DNA of 64,000 bases from positions 1 to 64,000 of the forward strand of contig NZ_JACCKA010000073.1 of NCBI RefSeq assembly GCF_013425525.1, written 5' to 3'. This DNA is from Luteimonas salinisoli (GTDB lineage: Bacteria > Pseudomonadota > Gammaproteobacteria > Xanthomonadales > Xanthomonadaceae). A program made the translations under genes and the position numbers. Below the pieces are notes generated by a model. That model searched no databases and was not told the origin of the DNA. It worked only from the letters and a program-made list of their open reading frames with translations. This document shows, in pieces, positions 7,175 through 62,338 of this stretch (its first letter is position 1; the number at the start of each line of letters is the position of its first letter).

Positions 7175-7181
7175 CGCCCGC

Positions 7182-44726: not shown

Positions 44727-45038
44727 TCAGTCGCCCCTCGGGATCACCTTCTTCGTACGTGTGGGGATCGTCTCCTGGTCGGGCCGCGGCGTGCTCGGCC
44801 AATGGATCTGCTGCAGGCTGCGATCGAGCCGATCGGCCAGTTCCTGGAAGCAGTGCGCCAGCGCGGCGGGCTCGAGCGACAGCTCGGCCGCGGGCAGGTC
44901 GTCGTGCGGGGAGCGCGGCGCGGCCAGGCAGGCCAGCAGGCGCAGGCGGTCGCGGGTCTGCTGCAGTGCCAGGTACGCCTCCTCGGGCAGCTGGTAGCAG
45001 CCGGGGGTGGCGATGGGTCGAGCGGGTCCGTTGCTCAT
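44727..45038 (-). CDS. Small conserved protein, XRE-associated family (copy 2)
   Basis: A 103-residue paralogue of the proteins at 31487 and 45469. The shared core is GCYQLPEEAYLALQQTRDRL, LLACLAAPRS, AAELSLEPAALAHC and FQELADRLDRSL. It differs in a 20-residue charged C-terminal extension ending TRTKKVIPRGD. It is divergent from the second XRE gene (45182) with about 140 bases between, containing an ACTATAGT palindrome. Function unknown. Confidence 0.75.
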   Translation of the reverse strand: MSNGPARPIATPGCYQLPEEAYLALQQTRDRLRLLACLAAPRSPHDDLPAAELSLEPAALAHCFQELADRLDRSLQQIHWPSTPRPDQETIPTRTKKVIPRGD

Positions 45039-45181
45039 GGGTCGTCCTCGCGTGATCAGGATCCCTGCCGGTCGATACGTCGCGCGTGCCTGCAAGGCCG
45101 CCAACCCGGAACCGCCGGGTTCGCGCAACTCATACTATAGTCTGTCGACGGTCTTGGCGACGGGGAGGGACCCTTTCGCCG

Positions 45182-45421
45182 ATGAACGGAACCCCGCGCG
45201 TGCTCACCAAGGCCTTCGGCCGCGTCGTCAGCCAGGCCCGACGCGAGGCCGGGTGGACGCAGGAAGAACTGGCGCACCGCGCCGGCGTGCATCGCACCTA
45301 CGTGGGCGACCTGGAGAACGGCCGCAAATCGCCGACGCTCGACGTGGTGGAGACCCTCGCCCGGGCCTTCGGCCGGCCGGCGAACGAGCTGATCGCGGCT
45401 GCGGAAGCGCTCGGGGGCTAG
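45182..45421 (+). CDS. Small XRE-family transcriptional regulator (copy 2)
   Basis: A 79-residue Cro/C1-type HTH protein: FGRVVSQARREAGWTQEELA, HRAGVHRTYVGDLENGRKSP and TLDVVETLARAFGRPANEL make up the five-helix domain. It differs clearly from the XRE protein at 31018 outside the HTH core. It is flanked on both sides by paralogues of one small protein (divergent on the left, convergent on the right). The ATG at 45182 is chosen since the upstream in-frame residues are unsupported. Confidence 0.85.
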   Translation: MNGTPRVLTKAFGRVVSQARREAGWTQEELAHRAGVHRTYVGDLENGRKSPTLDVVETLARAFGRPANELIAAAEALGG

Positions 45422-45468
45422 TCGCGAGGCTCAAGGCCGCCCGCCACGGATGGCATAGCGCGGGCCAA

Positions 45469-45759
45469 TCACAAGGACGGTTCTGCGTGCGGGGCTTCCG
45501 CCGTGCGACCGGCTCCCGACCAATGCGTCTGCCGCAGGCTGTGATCGAGCTGGCCGGCCAATTCCATGAAGCAATGCGCCAGCGCCGCGGGCTTGAGCGG
45601 CAACTCGGCCACGGGCAGGTCGTCCTGCGGAGAGCGCGGCGCGGCCAGGCACGCCAGCAGGCGCAGGCGGTCGCGGGTCTGCTCCAGCGCCAGGTGTGCA
45701 TCCTCGGAAAGCTGGTAGCAGCCGGGAGTCGGAGCGAACGAGCCGGGTCCTTTGCTCAT
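45469..45759 (-). CDS. Small conserved protein, XRE-associated family (copy 3)
   Basis: A 96-residue paralogue. The core reads GCYQLSEDAHLALEQTRDRL, LLACLAAPRS, VAELPLKPAALAHC and FMELAGQLDHSL, closer to copy 1 in the DDLP-to-AHC part and to copy 2 in the LLACLAAPRS part. It is convergent with the XRE gene that ends 47 bases away. A helical fold is expected. Function unknown. Confidence 0.75.
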   Translation of the reverse strand: MSKGPGSFAPTPGCYQLSEDAHLALEQTRDRLRLLACLAAPRSPQDDLPVAELPLKPAALAHCFMELAGQLDHSLRQTHWSGAGRTAEAPHAEPSL

Positions 45760-46495: not shown

Positions 46496-47440
46496 ATGCG
46501 CTTCTGGTGGGTGAACCACAAACAGACGGTCAAGGAAGAAGTCGCTGGAAGCTATCTGTGGTCGCCGCAAACTGAAGCGAACGGGAAGCGCAGCCAGTTC
46601 TACGAGAACATGCGGCGCGCCGCTCCAGGCGACAGGGTTCTGTCCTTCGCCTTCGCCCAAATTATGTATGTCGGAACCGTTCAAGATTTCGCCCGAGTAG
46701 CGCCAAGACCGCCAGAATTCCAGGAGCGCGGCAGGCAGTGGAGCGAGATCGGATGGCTCCTACCGGTGGATTGGACGTCGTTAGAAGAACCGGTTCGTCC
46801 CAAGGATCACATCACGCGGCTCCGGCCGCTTTTGCCCGGAAAGTACTCGCCAATTCAACCCGTCTCTGGAAATGGAAATCAGAAGGCATACTTCGCAGAG
46901 ATCGATCCTCGGATCTTCGAAATACTCGCTCGCTCAGCCGAAGCGAGTTCTATTCCCGCGGCGACCCAAGGGCAAGATGCGATCATTCAGATAGACAATG
47001 CACTGGAATCGGCCATCTCAAGAGATCAGCGTTTCGACGTGACGACAAGGCGACAGCTCATTCTCGCGCGGCATGGCCAAGGGCAGTTCCGCTTGCGCGT
47101 GATGTCCAAGCACAAGTCTTGTTGGCTAACCGGCGTTCGGTCGCCAGCGCTGTTGGTCGCCAGCCACATCAAGCCATGGCGTGCATGTACCGAAGCTGCC
47201 GAGCGGCTGGATGGCGCCAATGGTCTGCTCTTGGCGCCACATGCCGATCGCTTGTTCGATCGCGGCCTCCTGACTTTCGAGGACGATGGGAGTGCTCTCC
47301 TCTCAGAAGAGCTTCCCGTAGGAGAGATCGAGCGACTTGGCCTCGCCGAAGCGTGTTCCAGGCCTAGTCAGAGTTTTCCAGAAGCGACTTGCAGGTACCT
47401 CTCTTTCCATCGGAAGCACGTGTTTCTTGCGAAGCGGTGA
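46496..47440 (+). CDS. EVE-domain HNH endonuclease (putative modification-dependent nuclease)
   Basis: A 314-residue two-domain protein. The N-terminal EVE (PUA-like) domain begins MRFWWVNHKQTVKEEVAGSY and runs to about residue 145 (WLLPVDWTSLEEP, LSFAFAQIMYVGTVQDF). The C-terminal HNH domain (about 190-310) has CWLTGVRSPALLVASHIKPW, GANGLLLAPHADRLFDRG and an FEDDG stretch. EVE domains bind modified cytosines or related bases, and EVE-HNH fusions are thought to cut modified phage DNA (family knowledge). It ends 4 bases before the next large gene and is the first gene of a likely three-gene defence operon. The ATG at 46496 follows an AGGGGG ribosome site. Confidence 0.82.
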   Translation: MRFWWVNHKQTVKEEVAGSYLWSPQTEANGKRSQFYENMRRAAPGDRVLSFAFAQIMYVGTVQDFARVAPRPPEFQERGRQWSEIGWLLPVDWTSLEEPVRPKDHITRLRPLLPGKYSPIQPVSGNGNQKAYFAEIDPRIFEILARSAEASSIPAATQGQDAIIQIDNALESAISRDQRFDVTTRRQLILARHGQGQFRLRVMSKHKSCWLTGVRSPALLVASHIKPWRACTEAAERLDGANGLLLAPHADRLFDRGLLTFEDDGSALLSEELPVGEIERLGLAEACSRPSQSFPEATCRYLSFHRKHVFLAKR

Positions 47441-47444
47441 TCGA

Positions 47445-50339
47445 ATGAGACAAGACGCAGTAGGCAACGACTTCGAATGGAGCTCGTGGGGCATCGAGCA
47501 CTGGAATGAACGCCTCTTGGAACATTTTTTCTCGAACCGTTGCGATGAGCCTCCCGTTGCTGTGCTGCTCGTAACATCGGATGAGCTCGCCAGAGCGACC
47601 GGCGACCCGTTGGCCACGGCCGACGCAGCGCGCACCTCTTTCGTCGAGGCAGTGAATCGAGCAATCGGATCCAAGGGGCTGCTGGAGGACGCATCCAACT
47701 ATCGGGGGTTCCCTATGCATCCACCGCTGACGCGTCCAAGGTTCATCGCTCATCTCATTTTGACCTGCCTGGCGGCGTCGGAGTCCTCGGAGGAGCTCGC
47801 CGATGAAAGCTCGTTCATAGCGAGACTGCGTAAGCTTGCCGAGCTACACGCAAACTCACTCTCCATGCTCCCCATACTCTGGACTCACCTCCAGACCTGG
47901 CTCAGCAATCACGACGTTTCGTATCGGCGCCTGGTGCTACCGGACCCCGGCGGCCTGACGCGCATCGGCTACACCGTCAGGCTGACCTTTCCCGACCGCA
48001 GGGATCAGCAACGCTTATCGCGGTTGCTCGATGACGCCGGGTTCTCGGGAGCCGTACCGCCTATCGCACGGACCTTGTCGTTGGTCGCATCACAACGGTC
48101 CCAGTTTAGCGTCACATTCCAGCGCGCATTCGATGACTTCAGGCGAAAGTTGGAATCCACAAGCGAAGCGGAGTCCAAGAAGCTTTCCACGCATCGGCTC
48201 TGGGCAGCAGTAGTCGATGCGGCGCTGCGGGGGCGAGGCCACCAGCATTCAGAGTCGCTCACTCACTACTCAGTTCTCGCAGAAGACGCCGAGGACATAC
48301 TAAGTCTCTTCGTCACCAGCGACAGGGACGAGCCCCTGCCGCGCACGCAACCGGTCGAACTGTTCACCGCCTACGGACCGTGGAAGTTCGGGCTGGTCCC
48401 CGAGGACGGAGCACTGGACACGGGAGGGTTACACGCAATTGCCGGCGCAGTGCTGAGTGGAGCCCTTCGGCTGCCTCGCGTATCTGCCCTAGTGGATCAG
48501 GGCGTATTGCCCTTTGCCCTGCGCTCTCATGGTCTCCTGGAGCTGGTCGGCCGTTCTGAGTTGGACGCGGCGACTTACGCTCTAGTTCGCCAAGACAAGC
48601 TCGCCGATACACGCAGGATCTATTCGGATGGAACCGACATACCTTCGGCGTATCCCGGCTGGGCGCAGATCAGAGCCCCTGGCCTGAAAGCTGCACCAGC
48701 GTCCACGTTTCATGGAACGACACTGGCAGAGACATGGATTCTTCATGAATCGCTATCCCTTCCGGCAATTGGTATTCGAGGCGGAGTGCGTACCGAAGAA
48801 GGCTGGCTCGGGCTGGCAGAAGTCCTGCCCAAAGTGGTCGCTGATGATGCCAACCGAGTATGGATGGAAGCTGAAGACCGCGTCGTCGAGTTGGCCCGTG
48901 ACGAGAACGGTCTGTGGTTGCTGCCCCCGGACGACTGGTCCGGGCTGGTAGTGCTGAAAGCGACCTGGAGCGAGTACGAACGCCAGCGTGACGTTCGTTT
49001 CAATTCGACCGTCGTCACCGAAAACTTCAAGGCGCCGAACGACCCGGATGCTTGGCTCATCGAGGGAATGTCCAACGGTTCTAATCTTGGCTCCGCGGAC
49101 TCCGAAGAGACGTCGCTGATCGGTGACCGGGATGGCGTAGAGTTGGTGAACCCAATTCTGCTCGGCGCCGGGGTAGGAGAATTCGTCAGCGAGCCGGTGA
49201 AGTCGGCGTGGGCAGTTACACCGCTTGGTAGGAAATTCATCGGCCGCTGCGGTAGTCTGCGGGGCGACGATGCCATTCCGACATTTCGTGTCGACTCTGC
49301 GAACGCCCGTCGCCGTTGGCGGAAGCTTCTTCTAAAGTCGGACCCTGCAGATTCGGAATTCGCAGCGAATCGAGATCGAGTGAAAGGGAAGGTCGCATCC
49401 GACGCGCTGCCGAGTCAAGCCGTGTCGCAAATGATTCCAGATCTGACACCCCGCAAATTCCAAGCCGTCAAACCAACCGTCGATCGGCTCGTTAGAGTGA
49501 TCTCTGGACGCGCGGCGACTCGCGCGGGCATCCCTTGGCGTGAATGGAAGGAACTAACGCTCGGCACCCTCGATATCGATGCGAGGAATCTGGCTCATGT
49601 CACACGGGCCTGGATGGAAGCGGGCTTCATCGACGTCGCGTCGTTCGCTCGATGGAGGAGGCGTTGCGTATTCGCGCGAGCGCCGAAGCTACTCGCTTAC
49701 CGAGCAGGAGGTGTCGTTAACGCAATCGTCTCAGGATTGTCGCTCCCGGCCACGCAAGCTGCAATTCTTGATGCATCGGCCCGATTGGAGATGCTCGTCC
49801 TCACGCGCAGATCAATATCCGCCCTCGTACCGCCCGTCCTGCGAATCGTTGGCAATGATGAAGAGTCAATTTCGCTCGTTGCGCGACAGGTCTCTATGCC
49901 GATCACCTGGCTCAGGGCGGATATGTTGGGGCGAATGTTCGGTACGCTACCGAGCGGGGCGGCCGCGCCAACACAGTACGATTCGGCGGGAGAATGGCAT
50001 CGATGGTCGCTTAAGGAAGGCCCGGTTCCGGGCATCCGAGTCGAGCATTTCGTTAGAGCAGATCGGCCGGACTATTGGCTTGCAACGCATGAGAGTGGTT
50101 CGAGCTGGGCTTTCGAGCTCAACCCGCTACGACAATGGGCGGCAGCCGTACTTGGGGAGCCTCTCGTGGTGACAGACGGCCCCCATGATCTCGTCGCGCA
50201 TCACGGGTATCTTCCGCTGTCGGTGGCTCGGCTGGCCGGCGTGCTTGGACAAGGGCTCGCCGGCCCATCAGGCTCCGGAGAGTATCGATACCCGGTAGGC
50301 GCGGTCGTTCGTGCGAACATCCTCGCGATGTTGCGATGA
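47445..50339 (+). CDS. Large uncharacterised defence protein (DruH-like by position and size)
   Basis: A 964-residue soluble protein with no motif that I recognise: no Walker box, nuclease or membrane segment was seen. It is mixed alpha/beta with many Arg/Asp residues and some WSSWGIEHWNERLLEHFF-type aromatic clusters at the N terminus. It sits directly before a DruE-type helicase (32 bases), the arrangement of Druantia type III (druH-druE), in which DruH is likewise about 1000 residues of unknown function. Assignment rests on context and length, not on sequence signature. It starts 4 bases after the EVE-HNH stop, so the three genes are co-transcribed. Confidence 0.6.
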   Translation: MRQDAVGNDFEWSSWGIEHWNERLLEHFFSNRCDEPPVAVLLVTSDELARATGDPLATADAARTSFVEAVNRAIGSKGLLEDASNYRGFPMHPPLTRPRFIAHLILTCLAASESSEELADESSFIARLRKLAELHANSLSMLPILWTHLQTWLSNHDVSYRRLVLPDPGGLTRIGYTVRLTFPDRRDQQRLSRLLDDAGFSGAVPPIARTLSLVASQRSQFSVTFQRAFDDFRRKLESTSEAESKKLSTHRLWAAVVDAALRGRGHQHSESLTHYSVLAEDAEDILSLFVTSDRDEPLPRTQPVELFTAYGPWKFGLVPEDGALDTGGLHAIAGAVLSGALRLPRVSALVDQGVLPFALRSHGLLELVGRSELDAATYALVRQDKLADTRRIYSDGTDIPSAYPGWAQIRAPGLKAAPASTFHGTTLAETWILHESLSLPAIGIRGGVRTEEGWLGLAEVLPKVVADDANRVWMEAEDRVVELARDENGLWLLPPDDWSGLVVLKATWSEYERQRDVRFNSTVVTENFKAPNDPDAWLIEGMSNGSNLGSADSEETSLIGDRDGVELVNPILLGAGVGEFVSEPVKSAWAVTPLGRKFIGRCGSLRGDDAIPTFRVDSANARRRWRKLLLKSDPADSEFAANRDRVKGKVASDALPSQAVSQMIPDLTPRKFQAVKPTVDRLVRVISGRAATRAGIPWREWKELTLGTLDIDARNLAHVTRAWMEAGFIDVASFARWRRRCVFARAPKLLAYRAGGVVNAIVSGLSLPATQAAILDASARLEMLVLTRRSISALVPPVLRIVGNDEESISLVARQVSMPITWLRADMLGRMFGTLPSGAAAPTQYDSAGEWHRWSLKEGPVPGIRVEHFVRADRPDYWLATHESGSSWAFELNPLRQWAAAVLGEPLVVTDGPHDLVAHHGYLPLSVARLAGVLGQGLAGPSGSGEYRYPVGAVVRANILAMLR

Positions 50340-50371
50340 ATATGTGACACAACCAGGAGGGTAGCAGGGAC

Positions 50372-53300
50372 ATGTTCGACCCTATCGGCGGTTTCCTCAG
50401 GATTCGAGAGTTGTATCTAACCTATCTAGAGACGGCATTTCGAATTGGTAACGAGGCGGTAAGCAAAGAGCGCCGAGCTTTGCTGGAGTCGGCAGGAGCC
50501 TTGTGCACCCTACCGTTGATCGAGCCCGTTCCTCGCTATGTGCGGAGCACGACATCACTTCGTGAACTGGCGGCCGATCCTGGCGAAGCGCTTTCGGACT
50601 TCGAGCCAAGAGTTCGATCTGCGTTCATCCGATTGATCTCCGCAGGGCTGTTCGACGACTCCAGCGTGCGCTTGTTCAAACATCAGATGCAGATGCTGGC
50701 AAGAGGCACGGTACTGGGCCGCCCCGGCATCGTGACCTCCGGCACAGGGTCGGGAAAAACAGAGTCCTTCTTGCTGCCGGTGTTCGCCGAGATAATGCGC
50801 GAGGCATCGCAATGGTCGGCGCCAACGAATGGTTACCTGTGCACGCCCTGGTGGCACGACGACAACGGTAGACCCTATGAATCGTTTACGGCGATTCCGA
50901 AGTCCAGACGACCGTTGAAACAGAACCCCAGCGCAGATCCGTTCGTATCGCATCGCGCCGGAGAACGTCGCCCAGCTGCAGTTCGCTGCCTGCTGCTCTA
51001 TCCGATGAACGCGCTTGTCGAAGATCAGCTAACTCGACTGCGAAAGGCGCTCGATTCGGATGCGGCGAGGCGCGTTCTGGCGGAAGAGATTGGAGGCAAC
51101 CGAATATTCTTTGGGCGATACACCAGCGCCACCCCGGTCACCGGTTTCAACGTTCACCCACGGATTGCTGCGGAGGACGACCGTGAGCGTCGCACTAGAC
51201 AGCTTCGCGCATTGTTCAATGAAATGATCGATTTCGAGCGCACCCAGCGCGAGATAGAGAGGCGTTGCCGCGAAGTCCCGCCGACACTCAATGCCGAGGA
51301 CCGGTTCCTCTTCCCGGCAGTTGACGGCGCGGAGATGCTGACGCGGTGGGACATGCAAGTGCAGCCACCTGACATCCTCATCACCAATGTGAGCATGTTG
51401 GGGGCGATGCTAAACCGTGAAGTCGAGGATCCACTCTTCGAGGCGACCAAGCGATGGCTGGTAGAGAACGAAGACGCCTACTTCTATCTCGTGCTCGACG
51501 AGTTGCACCTTCAGCGTGGCGCAGCTGGCACCGAAGTCGCTTACTTGCTGAGATTGCTATTGGCTCGGCTGGGGCTAGACAGTCCGGCGCATCGGCACAA
51601 GCTGAGAATTCTAGCGTCTAGCGCGTCACTGCCAGTAGACGGGGAACAGGGCCTAAGGAGCCAGGAGTATCTGTGGGACATGTTCGGCAGCTTCGGCCAC
51701 TGGACTCCACAGAAGAACATGGCAACTTCTCCTGCGGACTGGCGTAATGCGATCGTCGCAGGAGAGCCCGAGGCAGAACGCAAAGTCATTCGGCCGCGAC
51801 TTGAGCCCGGGCCGTTCATCGAGTTCCTGACGCGTCATGGAGGTGGAGCGCGTGAGCCGGCGTGCGCGGCTGATGGTGAGACCCCGCCGCTGTTGGCAAA
51901 TGCATGGCCTGCCTTGGGCGACGCCATGGGCGTGAGCACTACCGGCCCCATCGCAAGCGTCGTTCGAGAGGTGATCGGAGAGGCGGGGCGCCATCTCGCA
52001 GCCGCGTGCTGGGCGCCGGAGGAGGGTCGTTCACGGGCGACTCCCATCGACGAACTGACTCGGCGAATCTTCGGTGATGAGTGCAAGGATGAATCCGCCC
52101 TTCGTGGGCTATTGCTCGCGCGAGGACTCGGAGACGTTTTCCACAAGTGGTTCGAAGCCGAGGCCGCGACCGTGCCACTCGACGCACCATCCTTCCGAGT
52201 GCATACGTTCTTCCGGAGCATTGAAGGGCTGTTCACACCCCTGGACCGGGGAGCGAGCGCAGCTGAAGACTTCAGAGATGGTGTGCGCAAAGTAGGCCGG
52301 CTCACGCTGGAGCGCGCTATCAGTACCGGCCTACACGATGGCGGGTCCTCCCCTCCGGCACGGTTGCTTGAGCTCCTGTACTGCGAGTGTTGCGGAGAGC
52401 TCTTCGTTGGCGGCATGCGCCGGAAGCAGGGCGACGTGGAATTGGAGCTGTTGCCCGGCGAGCCCGAGTTGGATGGACTGCCCGATGGCGCAACCGGACG
52501 GCGCTTCGAGGATCTTTCATTCGACGAGTACGCGGTCTTCTGGCCAACAGATCGATCAGACCCACCGCAGCCGCAGCTTCCGGCATCGGCCCCCGATGGC
52601 TGGAGCAGAAAGCGATTGGATCCCTTGACAGCGGTGTTGCGGCCGATCCCGCCGACTGGGCAGTTCCCGGCCGATCATGTCCTTGGCTGGTTGTTCACCC
52701 GAACGAACGCTCAGGACCGTCACGGACGAAGCAATCGCGATAGGGGCAGCAACGTCCCGTACTCGTGCCCCGCCTGCGGGACCGACTACTCACCGCGACA
52801 AGCGCGTAGCGGCGTGCGGCTCTCTCCGGTTCGTCACTTCCGAACTGGCTTCGCGAAGACGACGCAACTGCTCGCCAGTGAGCTGTTCCATCTTCTCAAG
52901 TTGGTGGTTCCATCACCGAAGCTGGTGTCGTTCTCGGACAGCCGGCAAGACGCGGCCAAAGCATCTCTTGAGGTCGAGAAGCGGCACCACGAGGACTTGC
53001 GCCGAGATGTCCTGGTGAACGAACTCCGGCGGGCACAGCGGGACCTGCCCACGGCCGATCAGGTGCGCGAGGCGATGGATATGCTCCGCGCTCAACGAAA
53101 CGAGGCGGGCAACCGGGGCGATTCGGAAGAGGAGCAGCGACTCAGTGATGAACTGAGATCCCGCGGCCCGATGCTCCAGGATGCGCTGGACGGAACGATT
53201 CGCATCGGCTACGTGCTGGAAAACCCCGAAGAGAAGAGCTCGTATCTGGGATACGCCGGGGGGACGCGGCTACCACTGAAGCCATTGATTAGATCGTTCG

Positions 53301-56300
53301 TGACGCTCGGCGTACATCCGACGAACCCGACGGGTGCGGGATTCTTTCGACCGGACGTGAATGGAGTCAAGCATTCATTCGAGTGGCCGAAGCTTTTTGA
53401 ACGGCGTGATGGGCAGATCGATTGGCGCGACGACGTGGTGGAGCAAGCTTGGTTGGATCAAGCGCGCATCCAGGTGGTCGACCGCATGCAATCGCTGGTG
53501 ACTGAAATTCTTCTGAGTAGAACCTACTTCTCGCTTGAGGAGGCTGGCATCGGATATCTGTGTCTTCCGAGATTTGCTCTCGGCTCCGAGATCGATTTCA
53601 ACCTGGCTGCCGCTTTCGCACGCGTCTTCGGTGATTCGTATCGACTCAACAGCACGGATTTCGATCGGCCCGCGCCCTGGCACGACGTGTCCAACGTCTC
53701 GGATCGCAGTCGGGTCTACCGCTTCGCCAAGGCAGTATGGGGTGTGAACACAAGACAGAATTTGGCCGATCTGCTAAAGGCATTTACGCAAGCGGGTCAT
53801 CTCGGAGGATACTTGTCCACGGCCTCCCTACGTGTCCGTCTAGCGAAGGAAGACGATCCGCTCTGGAGATGCGACAAATGCGCACGCGTCCATCTTCACA
53901 GTGGTGCGGGCATATGTACACGCTGTCTCTCGCCGCTAGCTGAATCTCCAAACGGTCGAGTAGCCGAGGTCGTTGCAAGCAACTTCCTGTCCAAGCGGTT
54001 GAACCGATCCGGCTCGGGAGAGTTTCGGCTGCATTGCGAGGAGCTCACCGGACAAACCGACGACGGCGCGGTGCGGCAGCGGAAGTTTCGCGGCATCCTA
54101 TTCCCCGACCTTCGCCAGAAGCGCGATGCAAATGGAGCGCCCGTTCGCGACGACGACGGAGAGCTCGTCTTCGAATCCGACCCTCACTTTCACCGAGAAC
54201 GGGAGGAAATCGACCTCCTTGCAGTCACCACTACCATGGAGGTGGGCATTGATATTGGCCCTCTCCAGGCCGTCCTCCAAGCAAATATGCCGCCACAGCG
54301 CTTCAATTATCAGCAGCGTGTGGGACGGGCTGGGCGTCGCCGACAGGCGTTTTCGCTAGTCCTAACCGTCTGCCGAACAAAGAGTCACGACCTCTATTAC
54401 TTCCGAGAGCCGCGCAAGATAACGGGTGACGTGCCGCCGCCACCGTTTCTGACGAAGCAAATGCCGAGCATCGCCCGTCGGTTCCTACGCAAGCGATGGC
54501 TGAATGCGGCGTTTGCACTACTTCGAGGGTCACACGATCCGTGGCAGGGAGACGGAATGCGGCCGCCGGACATCCACGGCGAGTTCCTGCCTACGAATGA
54601 GTACTTCAGCGGCGGCTGGGAAGACCGCCTGAGCGTTGCCTTACAGGCAACCGAAACCCAAGCGCGGGACTTCGCTCGGTTGCTGTGCGAGGAGTCCGCA
54701 CTGCTCTTCGAAGACATCTGGATCAGCCCTACCAAGCTGCTCGAGGAGGTTCGCCAAATCAACGTACGGCAGGAATCCAAGCAGCTCGGACTCGCCCACT
54801 CACTGGCCGAGCAGGGCAGTCTTCCCATGTATGGCATGCCTACACGAGTACGCAACCTCTACTGCGGCATCAAGAGCTCTAGTGGATCATCAGGACGGCC
54901 GGCCGAATGGAATACGATCGACCGAGATTTGGATTTGGCGATCTACGAGTTCGCCCCGGGCTCGGTAATCGTCAAGGACAAGTTGGAGCACCTCTGTGTA
55001 GGGTTCACTGGGCCATTGCCTGATGTGCGCTTCTCATCACCAGCGATCGACATGCGCGTGCAGCCGAGGTCGGCTGCCTTCGGTGAGCCGTTCTGGATGC
55101 TTGAGTGCCCACGGTGTGGCTCTTGGTTCCGACGCGACACGCGGCCATCCGAGAACGTGGGTGACTGCAACTCGTGCGGCGATCAATTGATCCCGAATCG
55201 CGCCAAGGAATGTCGCGAGCCGCTGGGGTTTCGGACCAACTTTAGACCTTTGTCTAACGTCGAGAGCGATGCACCAAGCGGACGTCATCGTTCGATTCAA
55301 TCCGAGGCACGTGATTTGAACTTTCGCAAGTGTGCGAGTTCCAATCTAGAGGTGTTCGCCGACTCCATCCGCACCTATCGGCTGAACCGCGGCGCCCCTG
55401 ATCCCGATCAACCGGGCCGTCACGTCGGATTTAGTGGTTCCGCCGGCGATCAAGTCTTGCATCGATCTGGCAAGACGGTGACGTTGGAACAACAGATTAT
55501 AACTGATGAGATCATTGAGCAGCGGCGTCAACCGTCGCACTACACGTCTTTGGGAGCGGGTCCAAACTCCATAGATCGCGCTTGGTTGGCAGCCCCCAAA
55601 ACCACCGACGCCTTGTATCTCGCTCCAGCGGCGTTGCCGCTTGGATTGAGCATCGAGCGCGTGGTAGGCCCCAGGTTCCTCGGAAACGGCGTCCAGCCTC
55701 TCGATGCACTCAGTCGGACCGCTGTGCGTGCCGCTGCGCTATCAGCGACGTTCATCCTGGTCAATCGAGCCGCACTCGAATTGGACGTAGATCCGGAAGA
55801 GTTCGACGTCATCGATCCCAGGGTGATGCGAATCGCCGGTGGCGTAGCCAAGCCGGTCCTCCAGATTGTCGATCATCTCGTCAATGGAGCCGGATTCTGT
55901 GTAGCACTTGGTACGCCCGTCGAGAATCCTCGGATTAACGGCATTGTCGGTTCCATCCTGCGCGATCAGACCGAGTATCCCTTGAACGAGTTGCTCAGGG
56001 ACGATCATGAGCATTCTTGCGAACACGCGTGCTACCGATGCCTCATGCGTTATCGCAATCAGCCGTACCACGGACTCCTCGATTGGCGCCTGGGCCTGTC
56101 CTTCCTGCACGCGCTCCACGATGACTCGTTTCGGTGCGGCCTGGATGGGCGATTCGAAGCTCCTGCCTTGAGGACCTGGCCGCAACTCGTTGATGCCGAT
56201 GTTCAGCGGGTCAAGCGGCAATTCAACCGGGTGCAAATTAAGCGAACCGGGGCCGTTTCCGCTGTCAAGTTCGACCGTGCGTCGAAATGGGCGGTCATTG

Positions 56301-56446
56301 CCCACCCGCTTTGGGATCCCATCGAGCCCACAGGTTGTCTTCTGGAAGCGATTCAGGAATTGGACGGGGATGCAGTCGTGGTCGATTCATTCAATTTCTC
56401 GCGACGGGCGGGGACCATTCGTACCGCAATCCTCGATGGGGCGTAA
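50372..56446 (+). CDS. druE: Giant DEAD-like helicase with DUF1998-type C terminus (Druantia DruE-like)
   Basis: A 2024-residue helicase. Superfamily-2 motifs are seen in order: Walker A TSGTGSGKT (residues 122-130), motif Ia PMNAL (about 211), Walker B DELH (376-379), motif III SSAS (about 415), motif V VGIDIG (from 1291) and motif VI QRVGRAGRR (from 1315). Cysteine-pair zinc-like sites occur at CPACGTDYS, CDKCARVH with CTRCL, CPRCGSWF with CNSCG, and CEHACYRC (from about 1883). The last, with its MRYRNQPYHGLLDWRLGL stretch, marks the DUF1998-like C-terminal domain. A helicase fused to DUF1998 at about 2000 residues is the hallmark of DruE. A strong AGGAGG ribosome site precedes the ATG. It probably translocates on invading DNA (inference). 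Confidence 0.82.
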   Translation: MFDPIGGFLRIRELYLTYLETAFRIGNEAVSKERRALLESAGALCTLPLIEPVPRYVRSTTSLRELAADPGEALSDFEPRVRSAFIRLISAGLFDDSSVRLFKHQMQMLARGTVLGRPGIVTSGTGSGKTESFLLPVFAEIMREASQWSAPTNGYLCTPWWHDDNGRPYESFTAIPKSRRPLKQNPSADPFVSHRAGERRPAAVRCLLLYPMNALVEDQLTRLRKALDSDAARRVLAEEIGGNRIFFGRYTSATPVTGFNVHPRIAAEDDRERRTRQLRALFNEMIDFERTQREIERRCREVPPTLNAEDRFLFPAVDGAEMLTRWDMQVQPPDILITNVSMLGAMLNREVEDPLFEATKRWLVENEDAYFYLVLDELHLQRGAAGTEVAYLLRLLLARLGLDSPAHRHKLRILASSASLPVDGEQGLRSQEYLWDMFGSFGHWTPQKNMATSPADWRNAIVAGEPEAERKVIRPRLEPGPFIEFLTRHGGGAREPACAADGETPPLLANAWPALGDAMGVSTTGPIASVVREVIGEAGRHLAAACWAPEEGRSRATPIDELTRRIFGDECKDESALRGLLLARGLGDVFHKWFEAEAATVPLDAPSFRVHTFFRSIEGLFTPLDRGASAAEDFRDGVRKVGRLTLERAISTGLHDGGSSPPARLLELLYCECCGELFVGGMRRKQGDVELELLPGEPELDGLPDGATGRRFEDLSFDEYAVFWPTDRSDPPQPQLPASAPDGWSRKRLDPLTAVLRPIPPTGQFPADHVLGWLFTRTNAQDRHGRSNRDRGSNVPYSCPACGTDYSPRQARSGVRLSPVRHFRTGFAKTTQLLASELFHLLKLVVPSPKLVSFSDSRQDAAKASLEVEKRHHEDLRRDVLVNELRRAQRDLPTADQVREAMDMLRAQRNEAGNRGDSEEEQRLSDELRSRGPMLQDALDGTIRIGYVLENPEEKSSYLGYAGGTRLPLKPLIRSFVTLGVHPTNPTGAGFFRPDVNGVKHSFEWPKLFERRDGQIDWRDDVVEQAWLDQARIQVVDRMQSLVTEILLSRTYFSLEEAGIGYLCLPRFALGSEIDFNLAAAFARVFGDSYRLNSTDFDRPAPWHDVSNVSDRSRVYRFAKAVWGVNTRQNLADLLKAFTQAGHLGGYLSTASLRVRLAKEDDPLWRCDKCARVHLHSGAGICTRCLSPLAESPNGRVAEVVASNFLSKRLNRSGSGEFRLHCEELTGQTDDGAVRQRKFRGILFPDLRQKRDANGAPVRDDDGELVFESDPHFHREREEIDLLAVTTTMEVGIDIGPLQAVLQANMPPQRFNYQQRVGRAGRRRQAFSLVLTVCRTKSHDLYYFREPRKITGDVPPPPFLTKQMPSIARRFLRKRWLNAAFALLRGSHDPWQGDGMRPPDIHGEFLPTNEYFSGGWEDRLSVALQATETQARDFARLLCEESALLFEDIWISPTKLLEEVRQINVRQESKQLGLAHSLAEQGSLPMYGMPTRVRNLYCGIKSSSGSSGRPAEWNTIDRDLDLAIYEFAPGSVIVKDKLEHLCVGFTGPLPDVRFSSPAIDMRVQPRSAAFGEPFWMLECPRCGSWFRRDTRPSENVGDCNSCGDQLIPNRAKECREPLGFRTNFRPLSNVESDAPSGRHRSIQSEARDLNFRKCASSNLEVFADSIRTYRLNRGAPDPDQPGRHVGFSGSAGDQVLHRSGKTVTLEQQIITDEIIEQRRQPSHYTSLGAGPNSIDRAWLAAPKTTDALYLAPAALPLGLSIERVVGPRFLGNGVQPLDALSRTAVRAAALSATFILVNRAALELDVDPEEFDVIDPRVMRIAGGVAKPVLQIVDHLVNGAGFCVALGTPVENPRINGIVGSILRDQTEYPLNELLRDDHEHSCEHACYRCLMRYRNQPYHGLLDWRLGLSFLHALHDDSFRCGLDGRFEAPALRTWPQLVDADVQRVKRQFNRVQIKRTGAVSAVKFDRASKWAVIAHPLWDPIEPTGCLLEAIQELDGDAVVVDSFNFSRRAGTIRTAILDGA

Positions 56447-56868
56447 TCATTGGAGCCATTATTCGCGGCCCTCTGTACGGTGGAGGTGCGGGCCCTCTAT
56501 TCGCCGCCGGCGCTGATCACCGCCGGCGGATGCGTGCTGAAGACGACACTCGGCTCCTCCCGTGTGGCGAGCGACTAGGATCGGGACCGAAAGCCGCGAT
56601 CGGTACGATCGCTGCTTCGGATCTTGGAGCGCACATGGGGCCGAGAAGGCGTCGAGGTGGACTCCATCTTCGATACGGAGTACGAACGCATCGCCCCTGA
56701 GTTGCAAGGAGACCCTCGGCGCCGTCATTTCGCGGATCAGAGGGCCACGCTAGCTGAGATTTCGACGGCAAGCGATTCCATCCTCAGTCCTTTCACGAGT
56801 TTTCTCGCAATCGCCTGGAGCGAAGAGCGTGGACAATCTGCGTATTCTCCGGCGAGCTGGTCTGACTG
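56447..56868. other. 422-bp interval after the helicase gene
   Basis: This lies between the helicase stop and the convergent vsr gene. A 9-bp GC hairpin (CCGCCGGCG, 8-base loop, CGCCGGCGG; 56504-56529) could terminate the helicase transcript, though no U-run follows. The rest has a weak plus-strand frame (56624-56872, EGVEVDSIFDTEYERIAPEL) without recognisable family. I do not call a gene here. Confidence 0.45.
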
Positions 56869-57318
56869 CTAGGAGAAGGTCGCATTCTTGCCTCTGACCG
56901 GACGAAGAAGTCTCGATATCCGATCAGCCGCCACCTCCACTGATTCGTGCTCCCATACGCGAACGACTCGCCACCCGCTGGCTTCGAGTCGGATCGCCGT
57001 GTCATGATCGCGTGCGACGTTGGCATCGATCTTGCGACGCCACCATGCTGCGTTGTTCTTCGGCGCCGAACCGTGAACCGGACAACCGTGCCAGAAGCAA
57101 CCGTCCACGAACACGGCGAGCCGTTTCGATACGAATGCAATGTCAATAGTCCGGCGGGTTCCCTCTACGGGCCTGTGCAGCCGATACCGAAAACCTCGTT
57201 TATGTAAAGCGCTTCGGAGTGCTCGCTCACATGCATTGTCTCGTTGTGCCACTCGCGCCATGCGCTCGCTCGTGGCAGCGGAAACGTCAGATAGGGATTT
57301 ATTCCGCTTGCTTGGCAT
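56869..57318 (-). CDS. vsr: Very short patch repair endonuclease Vsr
   Basis: A 149-residue nuclease that nicks next to T:G mismatches arising from deamination of 5-methylcytosine. Family stretches are ACERALRSALHKRGFRYRLH, the metal-site aspartate in TIDIAFVSKR, VFVDGCFWHGCPVHGS with the conserved histidines and cysteine, and WWRRKIDANVARD. It overlaps the end of the methyltransferase gene by 20 bases when started at the ATG at 57318 (MPSKRNKS); an upstream in-frame ATG at 57351 is possible. The dcm-vsr overlap mirrors the E. coli arrangement. Confidence 0.9.
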   Translation of the reverse strand: MPSKRNKSLSDVSAATSERMARVAQRDNACERALRSALHKRGFRYRLHRPVEGTRRTIDIAFVSKRLAVFVDGCFWHGCPVHGSAPKNNAAWWRRKIDANVARDHDTAIRLEASGWRVVRVWEHESVEVAADRISRLLRPVRGKNATFS

Positions 57319-58525
57319 GCTGCGCCAGGGCTTCCGCGAACTGAGGATCATAGTTCAGAGTGCTGCGCATCAATCGAGAGAGGAATCCGTTCGTGGCGCG
57401 TTTCGACAACGGTTGGAGCGGGTGTTTGAGGAATGGCGCCAAGTGCAGCTGTTCCATCGCCACCGGCCAATCTGACACATCGGCAGCCCGGCGCTTGCGC
57501 CCATAGCACCACGCAGCGCTTGGCCAGCTGCCGGTCTCGGGAAGGGAGGTCTCGCCCGAAGCCTGAAACTTGCTCAAGGGGCGGGCAAGTCTACCGGCGA
57601 GCCAAGTTGCCATGGGGACGCTGACTGCGTTTCCAACCATGCGCCATCGCTTTCCCCGCGATTCGCGAGAGCCGTCTTGCAAGACAGATGTCCAATCGGC
57701 ATCGAAACCCTGCAGTCGTTCTGCATCCTCAATGGACGGCATTGCGATCAGCCCGCTGCGAGGGAACCAGATGGCAGGAGGGGACGGAATATGCAGCGCC
57801 GATCCCCCCTTGAGAGGAGGAACCGCGTTGACTGCCCAGCCGAGCCCGGTATTGCCCTCAGTCCAATAGAATCCACACGCGTGCGATCCGCGTGATCTCG
57901 TCTCAGGTGCACCGACGTCTTGGGCCAGCAGCGAAGGGCGTGGGTCATGCACGCGTGAAGCGACCAGGAGGACGCGTCGCCGGCGCTGCGGCAAGCCGAA
58001 CGCTCGCGCATCTACGGTGCGATAAGCCCAAGCGAATCCCATCGATTCGAGAGCCGACGTGATGTATCGAATAGCCAGCCCGCCGTGCAGATTGAGCATG
58101 AAGGGAACGTTTTCGATAACGACCCATTCCGGACCGACCTTTCGATCCTTGAGCAAGCCCAGCAGCACCCCGATCAACCCGGAATTCGGACCGGTGATCC
58201 CTTGTCGTCGGCCCACCTGACTGAGGTCCTGACACGGAAAACCCGCCGTTAGTACCGTGCAGGCTGGCAAGCGGGCGAGTGCTCGGACATCGCTCTCGAT
58301 GGCGGCTCCGGGGAAGCGGGTCTGAAGCACCTGGCGCGCCGTCGAGTCGATTTCGCACAGCAATGACGTTTCGAAGCCGGCCTCATGAAAGCCGGCTTCG
58401 AGACCGCCGACGCCGGCAAACAACCCCACCACCGTGGGACGAGATGCTAGCTCGCCGGATATGGCACGCCGGGACTGCTTAGAGTTCGTCTGGGCAGCGG
58501 GCAGCTTCCGTTTGGTCTTGCTCAC
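57299..58525 (-). CDS. DNA (cytosine-5) methyltransferase (Dcm family)
   Basis: A 408-residue C5-methyltransferase. Motif I is LFAGVGGLEAGF (SAM binding), motif IV GFPCQDLSQVG has the catalytic C98, motif VI is IENV (138-140), motif VIII QRRRRVLLVA and motif X GNAVSVPMA. The target-recognition region (about 190-280) is short. Its sequence specificity cannot be told by reading. It sits on the opposite strand from the EVE-HNH/helicase operon and overlaps vsr. It may mark self DNA for the neighbouring defence genes, or stand as an orphan methyltransferase with its own repair partner. The C-terminal 90 residues extend beyond motif X. Confidence 0.9.
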   Translation of the reverse strand: MSKTKRKLPAAQTNSKQSRRAISGELASRPTVVGLFAGVGGLEAGFHEAGFETSLLCEIDSTARQVLQTRFPGAAIESDVRALARLPACTVLTAGFPCQDLSQVGRRQGITGPNSGLIGVLLGLLKDRKVGPEWVVIENVPFMLNLHGGLAIRYITSALESMGFAWAYRTVDARAFGLPQRRRRVLLVASRVHDPRPSLLAQDVGAPETRSRGSHACGFYWTEGNTGLGWAVNAVPPLKGGSALHIPSPPAIWFPRSGLIAMPSIEDAERLQGFDADWTSVLQDGSRESRGKRWRMVGNAVSVPMATWLAGRLARPLSKFQASGETSLPETGSWPSAAWCYGRKRRAADVSDWPVAMEQLHLAPFLKHPLQPLSKRATNGFLSRLMRSTLNYDPQFAEALAQHAKQAE

Positions 58526-58947: not shown

Positions 58948-59271
58948 ATGAGGATGAACAGCCTGCTCCTGCGTACGATCTCGATCCTGCTCTTGCTCGC
59001 CGCCGGAGCATGTAGTGCGCCGCCTGTGGCCAGCCCCGCTTCGCCGGAAGACGTGCAAAGCTTCATGGCCGAAAGAGATCTCTGCGACCATTTCCGGGGC
59101 GAGATCCCGGACCCGGAAGACAGCCAGAGAATGGATGAGGTGATCTCCGCCATCGACCGGCACTGCACGGGCACCGACGCACGGCTAGATGCGCTGAGGG
59201 CCAAGTACGCGGACCGCGCGGAGATCCTGTCCAGGCTGGCGCCCTACGAAAGTGGGGTCGAGGCGCGGTGA
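58948..59271 (+). CDS. Small exported lipoprotein (copy 1)
   Basis: A 107-residue lipoprotein: the signal ends in LLLAAGAC. The mature part is helical and acidic: SPEDVQSFMAERDLCDHFRG, MDEVISAIDRHCTGTDARLD and KYADRAEILSRLAPYESG, with two cysteines that may pair. A nearly identical copy lies at 61879-62196. Function unknown. An in-frame ATG two codons further in (58954) aligns with the other copy's start. Its location beside a putative effector and immunity pair makes a protective role conceivable, but nothing in the sequence shows it. Confidence 0.75.
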   Translation: MRMNSLLLRTISILLLLAAGACSAPPVASPASPEDVQSFMAERDLCDHFRGEIPDPEDSQRMDEVISAIDRHCTGTDARLDALRAKYADRAEILSRLAPYESGVEAR

Positions 59272-59303
59272 GCGTTACGGGCCTTCGCGGGTCGGGCTGG
59301 TGT

Positions 59304-59349
59304 CCTGGGTGCGCTGGCTCGTGTTGCGTAAACGCGCAACGTGCCCAGG
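59304..59349 (+). terminator. Hairpin between convergent genes
   Basis: CCTGGG (59304) pairs with CCCAGG (59344-59349), and within it GTTGCG-TAAACG-CGCAAC forms a 6-bp inner stem. It sits between the convergent lipoprotein and immunity-candidate genes. No U-run follows on either strand, so termination is only a suggestion. Confidence 0.4.
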
Positions 59350-59368
59350 ACGTTGGTGATGAATCGTC

Positions 59369-59893
59369 CTACTGCGACGGCTGGGCTGCCTGCGGCCAGT
59401 CCGGCGGCGGTACGCCGGGCTCGCGAATCCAGCGCAGCGAATGGATGTCGAGGCTGCCCGTCTCCGGATGGTAGATGCCGAAGACGCTGACCGGTCTGCC
59501 CACCATCGCCAAGACATCGCGCTCGCTCAGGTCCTGGTCGTTCAGTGCCCCAACTGGGACCGCCGTGCCGGAACCATCCCGGGCGCTGGCGAGGGCGAAC
59601 CCGTCGCCGCTGCGTACGAGGAAACCGTTATCGATAGCCACGGGCGTGCGGTTCTCGATCTCGGGCAACTCAACGAGCTGAAAGGGGCACAGCCGTTCGC
59701 TCATTCCTCCCACCCGGAAACACTTCTGCGGCTCTTCGGGCACCTCCTTGCCCGGCAGGACCAGCGCTTCTTTCCACGCGGCGGCGGGCTGCTCGGCGGC
59801 CTGCGGCGGCGCCCCGCCGGCAGCGGCGGCGGGCGCCGGGCGTTCGCCACAACCGGCAATGGCGAGCGCGACGAGCAGTAGCATCGACTTCAT
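59369..59893 (-). CDS. Lipoprotein, candidate immunity protein for the PAAR effector
   Basis: A 174-residue lipoprotein: MKSMLLLVALAIAGC gives a short signal with an IAGC lipobox. An Ala/Pro-rich linker (residues 17-40) leads to a small globular domain with one Cys pair (KCFRVGGMSERLC) and ending LDIHSLRWIREP. No family recognised. Its ATG overlaps the PAAR gene's stop by one base, and a small periplasmic lipoprotein directly downstream of an effector gene is the usual layout of T6SS immunity genes. The role is therefore inferred from context alone. Confidence 0.68.
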   Translation of the reverse strand: MKSMLLLVALAIAGCGERPAPAAAAGGAPPQAAEQPAAAWKEALVLPGKEVPEEPQKCFRVGGMSERLCPFQLVELPEIENRTPVAIDNGFLVRSGDGFALASARDGSGTAVPVGALNDQDLSERDVLAMVGRPVSVFGIYHPETGSLDIHSLRWIREPGVPPPDWPQAAQPSQ

Positions 59894-60837
59894 CAGAAGC
59901 TCCGATAGCCTTCGCGAAGCGGTACGGCGCGGGTTCGGTCCTGGAGCTGGATTTTCACGTAGTCGTCGTAGATCCAGCCGTGGAGACCCTCGGAGTCCGC
60001 GATGTAGACGTTGATCTCGTGATAGTAGCCGTAGACGAAATCGCCGGCCTGGATGTCACCTTCACCGCCGTAGCCGCCGGTGCCGTCCGGACCCGGCCGG
60101 TCGTAGCGGGAGAACGCCCGATCGCCGCCGCCCCACCCGTGTGGCGCAGGATGGGTGTGGACCGCCGCGGTCAGTCGACCTGCTGACCTTGGAGCGAGAC
60201 TCACGATGTCCTCGATGGTGGCCCGCTCGCCGCTGCTCCAGGGGGCGCCGAGGCGGTACTTTCCGTTGGCTGTTTGCGCGATCAGCGCGCCCACCTCCAC
60301 GCCATGACGATCCGCAACCGGCAACACGTGCTGCCGCCACTCCCTTGCTGCCTCAGCTTCGGTGTCGTACTCGCGGTAGGCACCGGCTGCCATCAGTGCA
60401 GCGTGCGAGTCGACGATGACATCGCGGGCGACGTTCCAGTTCGGCTCGGTGGGCGGGCTGGCGCCCTGCAAATGCTGAAGATCCAGTTCCGGCGGTTCGA
60501 CCTGGGTCCCGGCCACTGCGGCCGCGGCCATCGCTGCCGTCATTGGCCCTCGAGCTGGTGTTCCGGCACTCGTCCCGATATCAGCGAATACCCTGAACTG
60601 GCTGGAGAACAGCGTGGCACCGCAGGCGGTCTTGTCGCCGTGGCGGGCGACCGGCTGTCCGTCGATGATCATCGTGGCGTCCCCGGTCACGATCGATGTC
60701 GCACCATGCTGGCTGCACACCACGCGATCCGTGACACGCGCCACGGGCTTGCCGTCGATATCGGTGAACGGCGATCCGCTGACGACCGCACCTCCATGGT
60801 CTATACGGTCGCCCACTACAATGAAATTCTGGGCCAC
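59893..60837 (-). CDS. PAAR-domain protein with C-terminal DUF4329/JAB-like domain (putative T6SS effector)
   Basis: A 314-residue protein. The PAAR domain (residues 1-90) has the repeated beta-hairpin signature: GDRIDHGGAVVSGSP, the histidine in CSQHGATSIVTG, IIDGQPVARHGDKTACG. This caps the T6SS VgrG spike. After an Ala-rich linker the C-terminal domain (about 135-314) has an HTHP motif (227-230) and an FSxxD-like segment followed by GDIQAGDFVYGYYHE, resembling DUF4329/JAB-type domains seen at the ends of secreted toxins. It probably acts in the target cell, with the downstream lipoprotein as antidote. No T6SS structural genes lie in the window. Confidence 0.8.
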   Translation of the reverse strand: MAQNFIVVGDRIDHGGAVVSGSPFTDIDGKPVARVTDRVVCSQHGATSIVTGDATMIIDGQPVARHGDKTACGATLFSSQFRVFADIGTSAGTPARGPMTAAMAAAAVAGTQVEPPELDLQHLQGASPPTEPNWNVARDVIVDSHAALMAAGAYREYDTEAEAAREWRQHVLPVADRHGVEVGALIAQTANGKYRLGAPWSSGERATIEDIVSLAPRSAGRLTAAVHTHPAPHGWGGGDRAFSRYDRPGPDGTGGYGGEGDIQAGDFVYGYYHEINVYIADSEGLHGWIYDDYVKIQLQDRTRAVPLREGYRSF

Positions 60838-61041
60838 ACACGCCTCCTGCTCCCTGTGCCTGGACCTGCTATACCCTACCGTTGCCCCGGCTGCAATGTC
60901 ATTGAGCCCTGTTGGGGTCGCGCGCCGTCTCGGGTCGCAACTCGTTCCGTCTACGCCCGCGGAAACGCAGCCGGATGTTTCGAAATCGCCGCGTCCTCGG
61001 CGTCCCTAGTGGACACACTTGGCACTGAGGGGAGTTCTCCC

Positions 61042-61338
61042 ATGAACAACACCATCACGATCGCCGAGATCAAGCGCCGCGGCATGGTGGCGATCGAAGA
61101 AGGGCTTCGCCGCGGTCCTGTGCGGATCCTCAAGCGCAACCGGGCTGCCGCGGTGGTGCTGACCGAAGAGGAGTACCTGCGCCTCACCGGGGAGCAGCCG
61201 CAGGCCCGCCCGGGCGTTACGGCGTTGCAGTGGCTGCTGTCGCAGCCTGCCACTGGCACGCGCGACAAAGCGGACATCGACGCGGCGCTGGCCGATGAGC
61301 GCAACTGGCGATCGCGTTCTTCGACGCGAACGCCCTGA
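61042..61338 (+). CDS. Phd/YefM-like antitoxin (copy 1, stop codon lost, extended by 9 residues)
   Basis: The first 89 residues match the antitoxin at 62339 almost exactly (ITIAEIKRRGMVAIEEGL, AAVVLTEEEYLRLTGEQ). In copy 2 the gene stops after ERNW; here the codon that would be TGA is CGA because of a T-to-C change at 61309, so the protein continues to RSRSSTRTP, 98 residues in all. The N-terminal DNA-binding half is intact, so it may still bind DNA. Partner-toxin binding may be altered by the extension. It probably acts as a repressor and antidote, if the paralogous toxin is made. Confidence 0.8.
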   Translation: MNNTITIAEIKRRGMVAIEEGLRRGPVRILKRNRAAAVVLTEEEYLRLTGEQPQARPGVTALQWLLSQPATGTRDKADIDAALADERNWRSRSSTRTP

Positions 61339-61718
61339 TCTATCTCATCGAGGGCAGCGAGTCGTTCGCATGGCGGGTGCGGGACCAACTCGCACGCCTA
61401 TCGGAAGCGCATCCCGATCTTGGTGCCGCCGTCAGCCGCCTCTCCTGGCTGGAATGCCGCGTGGGACCGATGAAGCGCAACGATGCGGCCGCGCTGGCCT
61501 CGTTCGATGCCTTTTTCGCCCGGCCGGATCTCGTATGGGTGGAATTGAACCGTGACGTCGTGGAATTGGCTGCCGTCATCCGCGCGCGCCATGGGCTTCG
61601 CACTCCGGACGCCCTGCAGGCCGCCAGTTGCCTGCAGCTGGGGCCCGACCATCTGCTGTTGACCGGGGATGCCGCGTTCCGGCGAGTGCCTGGGCTTAAT
61701 GTCGCGGTCCTGGCTTGA
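61308..61718 (+). pseudogene. PIN-domain toxin copy 1, start codon destroyed
   Basis: This frame encodes a protein nearly identical to the PIN toxin at 62605, but the GTG start of copy 2 is GCG here (61308-61310), the same single-base change that removes the antitoxin stop. The next usable start is the GTG at 61377, which would lack the first 23 residues, including the catalytic aspartate equivalent to D6. The remaining acidic positions (E49, D101, D121 equivalents) are kept and no other lesion is seen, so inactivation looks recent. An extension by read-through from the antitoxin is not possible, because the two genes are in different frames. Confidence 0.8.
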
Positions 61719-61878
61719 GCGGACCTGGCGAGGCGGCGTTCTGCCGCGACAGCGCGGTTGGAAGCCGTAACTCGATGCCCGACGGCGGGCGGCCTCCGCC
61801 CGAGGGAACTGGCCCACCGGCGGGCTATTGTTTTCGTGCTCATATCGTGCACGATTCGTGCACCGCTCCACCGGAAGA

Positions 61879-62196: not shown

Positions 62197-62240
62197 AGCC
62201 TGGAAATGACGATCACCGGCTTTCGCGCAGGATTGCCACG

Positions 62241-62272: not shown

Positions 62273-62288
62273 GTCAGTATTGCTGTTT

Positions 62289-62306: not shown

Positions 62307-62338
62307 TTTACTCCACATTCAGTACTGAAGGTGCCGCC

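Follow-up and report, generated by a model that had tools for sequence, protein, structure and literature searches.

The 64,000-nucleotide stretch analysed here, below called the window (Luteimonas salinisoli, contig NZ_JACCKA010000073.1, positions 1 to 64,000), contains a five-gene block centred on a DruG-less core of the Druantia II type, accompanied by a C5-cytosine methyltransferase and a very short patch repair endonuclease (Vsr). The first gene of the core operon encodes an EVE-HNH nuclease, and such genes recur beside Druantia II-type cores of other genomes. The five genes are as follows.

46496-47440, plus strand: EVE-HNH nuclease, VcaM4I-like, 314 residues (phmmer match to 6yex; HNH_2)
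47445-50339, plus strand: DruF-type protein, 964 residues (PADLOC DruF2, PDLC00019), with no DruG part detectable
50372-56446, plus strand: DruE2 helicase of the YprA/MrfA family, 2024 residues (PADLOC DruE2, PDLC00014)
56869-57351, minus strand: Vsr (TIGR00632; E. coli Vsr 1cw0)
57299-58525, minus strand: C5-cytosine methyltransferase, proposed for the DruM role (PF00145; PADLOC MTase_II, PDLC03324)

An earlier, sequence-only reading of this DNA had placed all five genes correctly and had rightly identified the EVE-HNH protein, the helicase, the Dcm-type methyltransferase and Vsr. The three co-directional genes are separated by 4 and then 32 bases and by this spacing form one operon, as it had proposed. 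We read druF from an ATG; the longest open reading frame, from a TTG, would give 1000 residues. On the minus strand, vsr and the methyltransferase gene overlap by 53 bases. The lower GC content that had been claimed for the block was also found (0.59-0.62; left flank 0.68-0.73, right flank 0.65-0.67).

PADLOC models assign the core to type II. The helicase scores 1981 bits with DruE2 (residues 1-2018), 1279 with DruE4, 465 with DruE1 and 237 with DruE3, while the 964-residue protein matches DruF2 at 3.5e-35, chiefly over its first 270 residues; up to E 0.1 only DruF models, and no DruH model, match it. The sequence-only reading had called this protein DruH and the system Druantia III, and had named profile searches as the way to check both labels. 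Since there is no DruH match and DruE3 is far weaker than DruE2, the type III label fails that check and was rejected. The DruE4 and DruF4 models likewise score below those of type 2. A DruG profile search of positions 36001-64000 of the window found no DruG. The idea that DruG is concealed within the 964-residue DruF was rejected as well: a profile built from eight DruFs of DruG-less loci, including that of the window, matches DruFs elsewhere over most of their length (7e-88 and 5e-52) and has no match to DruG.

According to the part of the PADLOC paper available to us (PMC8565338), a type II system requires all of DruM, DruG, DruE and DruF, whereas in type IV DruL takes the place of DruM and DruG. 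DruL was matched by neither DruF nor DruE of the window, and no further gene fits into 46496-56446; the PADLOC scan of the surrounding open reading frames was partial. We also compared DruL of two Druantia type IV loci (L030, L031) with DruF alignments. By profile comparison DruL is similar to the C-terminal part of DruF (E 9e-7 to 3e-5, whereas four control families gave 0.14-0.85), and one DruL scanned with PADLOC gave weak matches to DruF2 tails too. By this likeness type IV may be a DruG-less system in which DruF is split, and the window looks like a relative of it with DruF in one piece and no DruG.

The leading gene is a relative of VcaM4I, the EVE-HNH enzyme of solved structure, over its whole length: residues 1-310 align to residues 1-306 of 6yex (phmmer E=1.2e-69). 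A Pfam scan reports HNH_2 only, the N-terminal EVE domain not being detected. All residues of the VcaM4I pocket for 5-methylcytosine (5mC) and 5-hydroxymethylcytosine (5hmC) are kept (Q10, T11, E15, W22, P24, W82, Q129 and Y132, the tyrosine standing one position after its placement in the phmmer alignment; residue roles follow the accessible part of PMC7897488), as are the HNH site residues H224, N242 and D251. The protein is predicted to be a modified-cytosine-dependent nuclease. VcaM4I itself depends on 5mC or 5hmC and is reported to cut 5hmC DNA faster than 5mC DNA (PMC7897488, same part). Directly behind the intercalating Gln, 7 of 7 rows from Druantia loci or Brevundimonas read K-A (K130-A131 in the window); Lys stands there in 0 of 12 other rows, one of which (L130) comes from a genome, G839, with DruE on another contig. 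This change in the base-flipping loop is a lead for altered specificity, but its occurrence in one clade may reflect one event. Among phages, the search with EVE-HNH gave two records with partial HNH matches at 1e-8.

The methyltransferase matches DNA_methylase (PF00145, 6.1e-42), carries GFPCQ, ENV and GNAV motifs and lies 9.9 kb from the EVE-HNH gene within the same cluster. Its best PADLOC model is MTase_II (PDLC03324, 435.8 bits), DruM2 reaching at most 114.5 bits with its best stretch in the N-terminal half. Relatives with 42-60% identity are found in eight other Druantia II-type loci. Vsr scores 110.8 bits against TIGR00632, above the cut-off of 97.85, and matches E. coli Vsr 1cw0 at 3.9e-14.

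We then asked how often these genes stand together, using loci gathered by DruE and not by EVE-HNH. They came from 11 of 15 plasmid records and from 37 contigs (one contig record was already included); the plasmid DruE matches H15-H18 lie outside the survey, and L042, which is the record of L015, was excluded. Dropping two near-copies (L027, L070) and the two type IV loci left 44, of which the 32 with an intact DruE, 5 kb before it and 3 kb after it were counted. DruF is present in all 32, DruG in 24, a C5 methyltransferase in 26, Vsr in 21, DruK (as named by PADLOC) in 16, EVE-HNH in five and GmrSD_N in three; the GmrSD_N of L058 lies at the edge of its stretch, without HEPN. Vsr and methyltransferase occur together in 20 of the 21 Vsr loci, and in the other one (L045) the stretch ends within a Dcm-like gene. 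Methyltransferase and vsr genes are thus common neighbours of these cores, and not an unrelated pair that faces the operon.

The EVE-HNH loci are the window and those of Agrobacterium pusense (L028), Sinorhizobium medicae (L029), Mesorhizobium (L051) and Rhizobium (L062, of which L027 is a near-copy). The adjacency of EVE-HNH to a Druantia core is therefore not confined to this genome, and the association that the sequence-only reading had suggested is not refuted on that ground. All five carry a C5 methyltransferase and vsr. These methyltransferases form three families (window and L051, 60% identical; L029 and L062, 92%; L028) with 22-29% identity between them. In L029 the EVE-HNH gene is interrupted by a stop, and a transposon separates it from vsr. 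The leading place of EVE-HNH holds for the window only: among the EVE-HNH loci examined, no other has it co-directional at the head of the operon, the gene lying elsewhere on the strand opposite druF. In L051 it lies between druF and the methyltransferase and vsr genes; L024 has GmrSD_N and HEPN at that place. McrBC in L017 and L070 and a GmrSD_N-HEPN pair in L016 are likewise modification-dependent types by name (L016 and L017 are under the flank limit of the survey). A search of the full records or genomes behind 43 Druantia loci, L070 not among them, gave nine with an EVE-HNH match at 1e-20: five inside Druantia loci (W07, W08, W09, G830 and G841, with W07 and G841 near-copies), two partial (G847, G848) and two with full-length genes on contigs other than that of DruE (G829, G839).

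Several loci show other features of their own. A Rhizobium phaseoli plasmid (L098, 12001-19297), not counted because it was found via EVE-HNH, holds a decayed Druantia II locus that has kept EVE-HNH, vsr and methyltransferase; its druF and druE form one fused remnant, and no druG match was found there. On a Pectobacterium chromosome (L064, 3283-16976) a Druantia II locus is split into many frames, and on a Rubrobacter plasmid (L015, 12001-15157) the DruF match spans three open reading frames. L017 encodes, between methyltransferase and druF (5697-7637), a 646-residue HATPase protein that matches a type II restriction enzyme and also has a weak C-terminal Shedu match.

Trees of both proteins were compared. 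The DruE tree is a quick one (40 rows, LG+G4, supports from the Shimodaira-Hasegawa-like approximate likelihood-ratio test only; 10 of the 40 rows have an odd composition). In it the five EVE-HNH hosts fall on four separate branches, which requires four changes, each enforced by starred branches; a single clade of these hosts is rejected (approximately unbiased test, p 3.4e-113, on this tree). The sister of the window DruE is that of an Actinomycetota metagenome-assembled genome (L041), whose locus has no EVE-HNH and comprises druF-druE-druK, vsr and a methyltransferase gene (48% identity to the window enzyme). L051 and L024 have sister DruEs and the same layout, one with EVE-HNH and the other with GmrSD_N and HEPN. 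In the EVE-HNH tree (17 rows) the six rows from Druantia loci fall within a set of eight supported at 98/97, together with that of Brevundimonas (G829) and a standalone gene (G604); the six alone have 47/22, and the five rhizobial rows 98/97. A Druantia-only EVE-HNH clade was dropped as a candidate: a first tree of 15 rows had grouped the six Druantia-locus rows with Brevundimonas, and the wider sample put the standalone G604 inside. Four DruE branches served by one EVE-HNH clade imply that the gene joined Druantia cores repeatedly or moved among them. The data support such repeated joining, and do not support exclusive dedication of these EVE-HNHs to Druantia.

Modification-dependent nucleases are described as orphans without a methyltransferase partner (PMC7897488). 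With 5mC on host DNA, such enzymes would be harmful to the host. Orphan status is a genomic habit and not a biochemical definition, and the EVE-HNH of the window does not follow it. EVE-HNH loci outside Druantia conform to it: in the stretches fetched for 14 of them (L099-L107, L130, L136-L139; 7 to 24 kb long, two near-identical and one a fragment) no methyltransferase or vsr match was found, nor was any found in the 9-kb stretch of the Brevundimonas gene. A NUDIX nucleotide pyrophosphatase adjoins EVE-HNH in Sphingomonas (L099, 7570-7980) and on two Priestia plasmids (L103, 5331-5717; L104, 5330-5716), and could keep modified deoxycytidine triphosphate from host DNA; the two Priestia enzymes differ at three pocket positions. 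Within the set of Druantia loci a single-query search found no NUDIX relative. VcaM4I-type genes of full length are rare, being present in 3 of 274 genomes of the class (20 of 274 match at 1e-15, mostly via the HNH part) and, at 1e-40, in 6 of 398 genomes of the phylum sample; the window's own genome and G225 are in both samples. The six other genomes of these samples with a full-length EVE-HNH (G225, G316, G433, G440, G604, G730) have no DruE match at 1e-40.

Of the mechanisms considered, the one that these observations make most likely stands at about even odds. The methyltransferase, in the role of DruM, would put 5mC on host DNA at its own site, and Vsr would fix the T:G mismatches that arise from 5mC deamination. 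DruF-DruE, a sensor or adaptor with a YprA-type helicase, would attack DNA without this mark. Phage DNA with hypermodified cytosines such as 5hmC would escape or mislead this first arm; EVE-HNH, encoded in the same operon, would be the second, flipping and binding the modified cytosine and cutting such DNA. Sharing its locus with a methyltransferase, EVE-HNH must spare the 5mC made by DruM, which it might do by a preference for 5hmC and perhaps through the loop K130-A131, altered in this group. Gene identities, their recurrence, and the catalytic and pocket residues are established; every step of the mechanism, DruM self-marking included, is inferred.

Several points weigh against this proposal. 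In most of its assays VcaM4I shows similar binding to 5mC and 5hmC (PMC7897488), so a resident C5 methyltransferase could do harm unless the specificity has changed, and the altered loop is only a correlate within one clade. Protection of self from DruF-DruE by DruM would follow from the composition of type II, and PADLOC ranks the methyltransferase of the window as a type II restriction-modification enzyme and not as DruM. In the fetched stretches, 11 of the 32 loci have no Vsr and six no methyltransferase match. EVE-HNH is optional, occurring in only five of them, and G604 belongs to the same EVE-HNH clade in a genome without a DruE match.

A wider version appears to us possible but tentative: Druantia II-type cores would have an exchangeable nuclease slot, filled by DruK, EVE-HNH, GmrSD_N-HEPN or McrBC, and a loop-retuned EVE-HNH ignoring DruM's 5mC would occupy it here, perhaps as the cutting subunit of DruE. 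If this is true, one locus with a retuned EVE-HNH reads both the absence of a self-mark and foreign cytosine modifications. A group of EVE-HNHs with known pocket residues beside three C5 methyltransferase families makes it testable how EVE tells the cell's own 5mC from a phage modification. For Druantia II, of which the literature available to us describes little mechanistically, these loci also offer a possible effector slot and a scheme of self-marking that can be tested gene by gene. We found no description of EVE-HNH in Druantia loci in the accessible, mostly open-access literature on Druantia, and the main text of a survey of EVE domains (PMC7641849) does not name Druantia.

The model of the C-terminal 470 residues of DruE (predicted local distance difference test score, pLDDT, 86.8) resembles the DUF1998 part of MrfA 6znp (Z 11.7, root-mean-square deviation (rmsd) 4.0, 177 aligned) and DrmAB 7s9v (Z 10.3, rmsd 5.1, 241 aligned). 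Within the last 90 residues a His is kept in 25 of 25 sequences and an Asp in 20 of 25, and no (D/E)xK motif is conserved among them, which fits a report of inactivated Vsr domains in the YprA helicases of Druantia I and II (PMC12458937, as far as its available text goes). The tail (372-462) aligns with TSEN (VIA-align; Z 3.5, rmsd 3.9, 84 aligned) too weakly to be named, and no Vsr structure is among the VIA-align rows for it. For DruF, the AlphaFold2 model (pLDDT 75.3) has no Foldseek match at E 0.001. Its residues from about 438 to 522 form a predicted Ig-like sandwich, whose best VIA row (Z 8.1, rmsd 2.4, 82 aligned) is near the tool's stated background; DruH of Druantia type III is also reported, in the material available, to contain Ig-like domains. 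A scan of genome contigs gave no DruF relatives, and a scan of viral contigs no relatives of the DruE N-terminus.

The main alternative to the two-arm mechanism is that EVE-HNH is the cutting subunit of Druantia, replacing DruK, the PD-(D/E)XK nuclease that relatives have behind druE, for a DruE that is itself nuclease-less. The missing nuclease motif of the DruE C-terminal domain and the reported inactivation of Vsr domains speak for it. So does the distribution of DruK: among eight DruG-less loci with enough flank, seven have DruK, and the window, alone in having none, is also alone in having EVE-HNH; its closest DruE relative, L041, has the reverse. No row among 40 DruEs combines DruK with EVE-HNH, GmrSD_N or McrBC (0 of 18, against 10 of 22; Fisher p 0.0008). 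However, relatedness leaves only five independent pairs (two opposite, none the same, three without difference), so that the exclusion is not significant, and a DruK/type IV exclusion as a statistical rule was discarded as significant only if relatedness is ignored. Moreover, nine DruG-bearing loci (L025, L026, L043, L054, L065, L072, L073, L074, L075) lack DruK, EVE-HNH and GmrSD_N in the fetched stretch, McrBC and other nucleases not having been searched for, so DruE may work without these, and EVE-HNH lies outside the druF-druE operon in other loci. We hold this replacement to be doubtful.

Two further explanations deny EVE-HNH a part in Druantia. EVE-HNH and Druantia, both mobile defence genes, may be plain neighbours in a defence island with no joint function, as the optional presence of EVE-HNH, its position outside the operon elsewhere, the six genomes that have it without DruE, and G829 and G839 with the two genes on different contigs would suggest. 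Against this stand the 4-base spacing between EVE-HNH and druF in the window, the presence of an otherwise rare full-length VcaM4I-type gene in 5 of 32 Druantia II-type loci, and the one EVE-HNH clade that serves four DruE branches, and we judge mere neighbourhood unlikely. It is very improbable that EVE-HNH, methyltransferase and Vsr constitute a type II restriction-modification unit that cuts an unmethylated site and was inserted around an independent Druantia core. Vsr does adjoin EVE-HNH in L027 (= L062), L051 and the decayed L098, and the HNH part gives a match to a type II HNH enzyme in PADLOC. But this EVE-HNH clade goes with methyltransferases of three families, unlike cognate restriction-modification pairs, and on this count the pair was rejected; the nearest solved relative is modification-dependent and has the same pocket; and the same methyltransferase family occurs without EVE-HNH, with DruK or GmrSD_N, in L024, L041, L052, L053 and L061.

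The surroundings of the block were inspected as well. No transfer RNA gene was found within the 64-kb window, and no integrase match among seven window proteins scanned, no systematic integrase search having been made. Across 52 genomes of the genus neither flank led to a clear intact empty site, most matches being short. A direct repeat of 213 bases (87%; 44796-45729) precedes the block on its left side, close to an XRE-type regulator (45086-45421). Two direct repeats of 300 bases (90% and 94%; 58951-62636) comprise copies of a small lipoprotein-like gene and the stretch downstream of it. A PAAR-motif protein (59893-60837) with a DUF4329 match under the cut-off adjoins a small lipoprotein-like open reading frame, and the two are a candidate effector pair of type VI secretion.

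The locus can be set against the known systems it resembles. With Druantia type III (DruH, DruE) it shares a large YprA-family helicase with a partner of about 1000 residues, and differs in the missing DruH match and in DruE type (237 bits for DruE3, 1981 for DruE2). Like Druantia type IV (DruE, DruF, DruL) it has DruE and DruF without DruG, whereas it has no separate DruL, its DruF is unsplit and the type 4 models score lower. Type II (DruM, DruF, DruG, DruE) has the same DruE2-type helicase, DruF2-type protein and C5 methyltransferase in the locus; in the window, however, no DruG was found, the methyltransferase gene lies on the opposite strand and has a model other than DruM as its best match, and there are in addition EVE-HNH as first gene and Vsr, which the PADLOC definition, in the part seen, does not name. 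The DruK-bearing, DruG-less loci L041 and L015 share DruF-DruE, methyltransferase and Vsr, but have DruK behind druE and no EVE-HNH, the reverse of the window. The window enzyme has the whole length of VcaM4I and its pocket and HNH residues. Unlike VcaM4I and TspA15I, both EVE-HNH modification-dependent nucleases, it has K130-A131 in the base-flipping loop and shares its locus with Druantia genes, vsr and the gene of a C5 methyltransferase.

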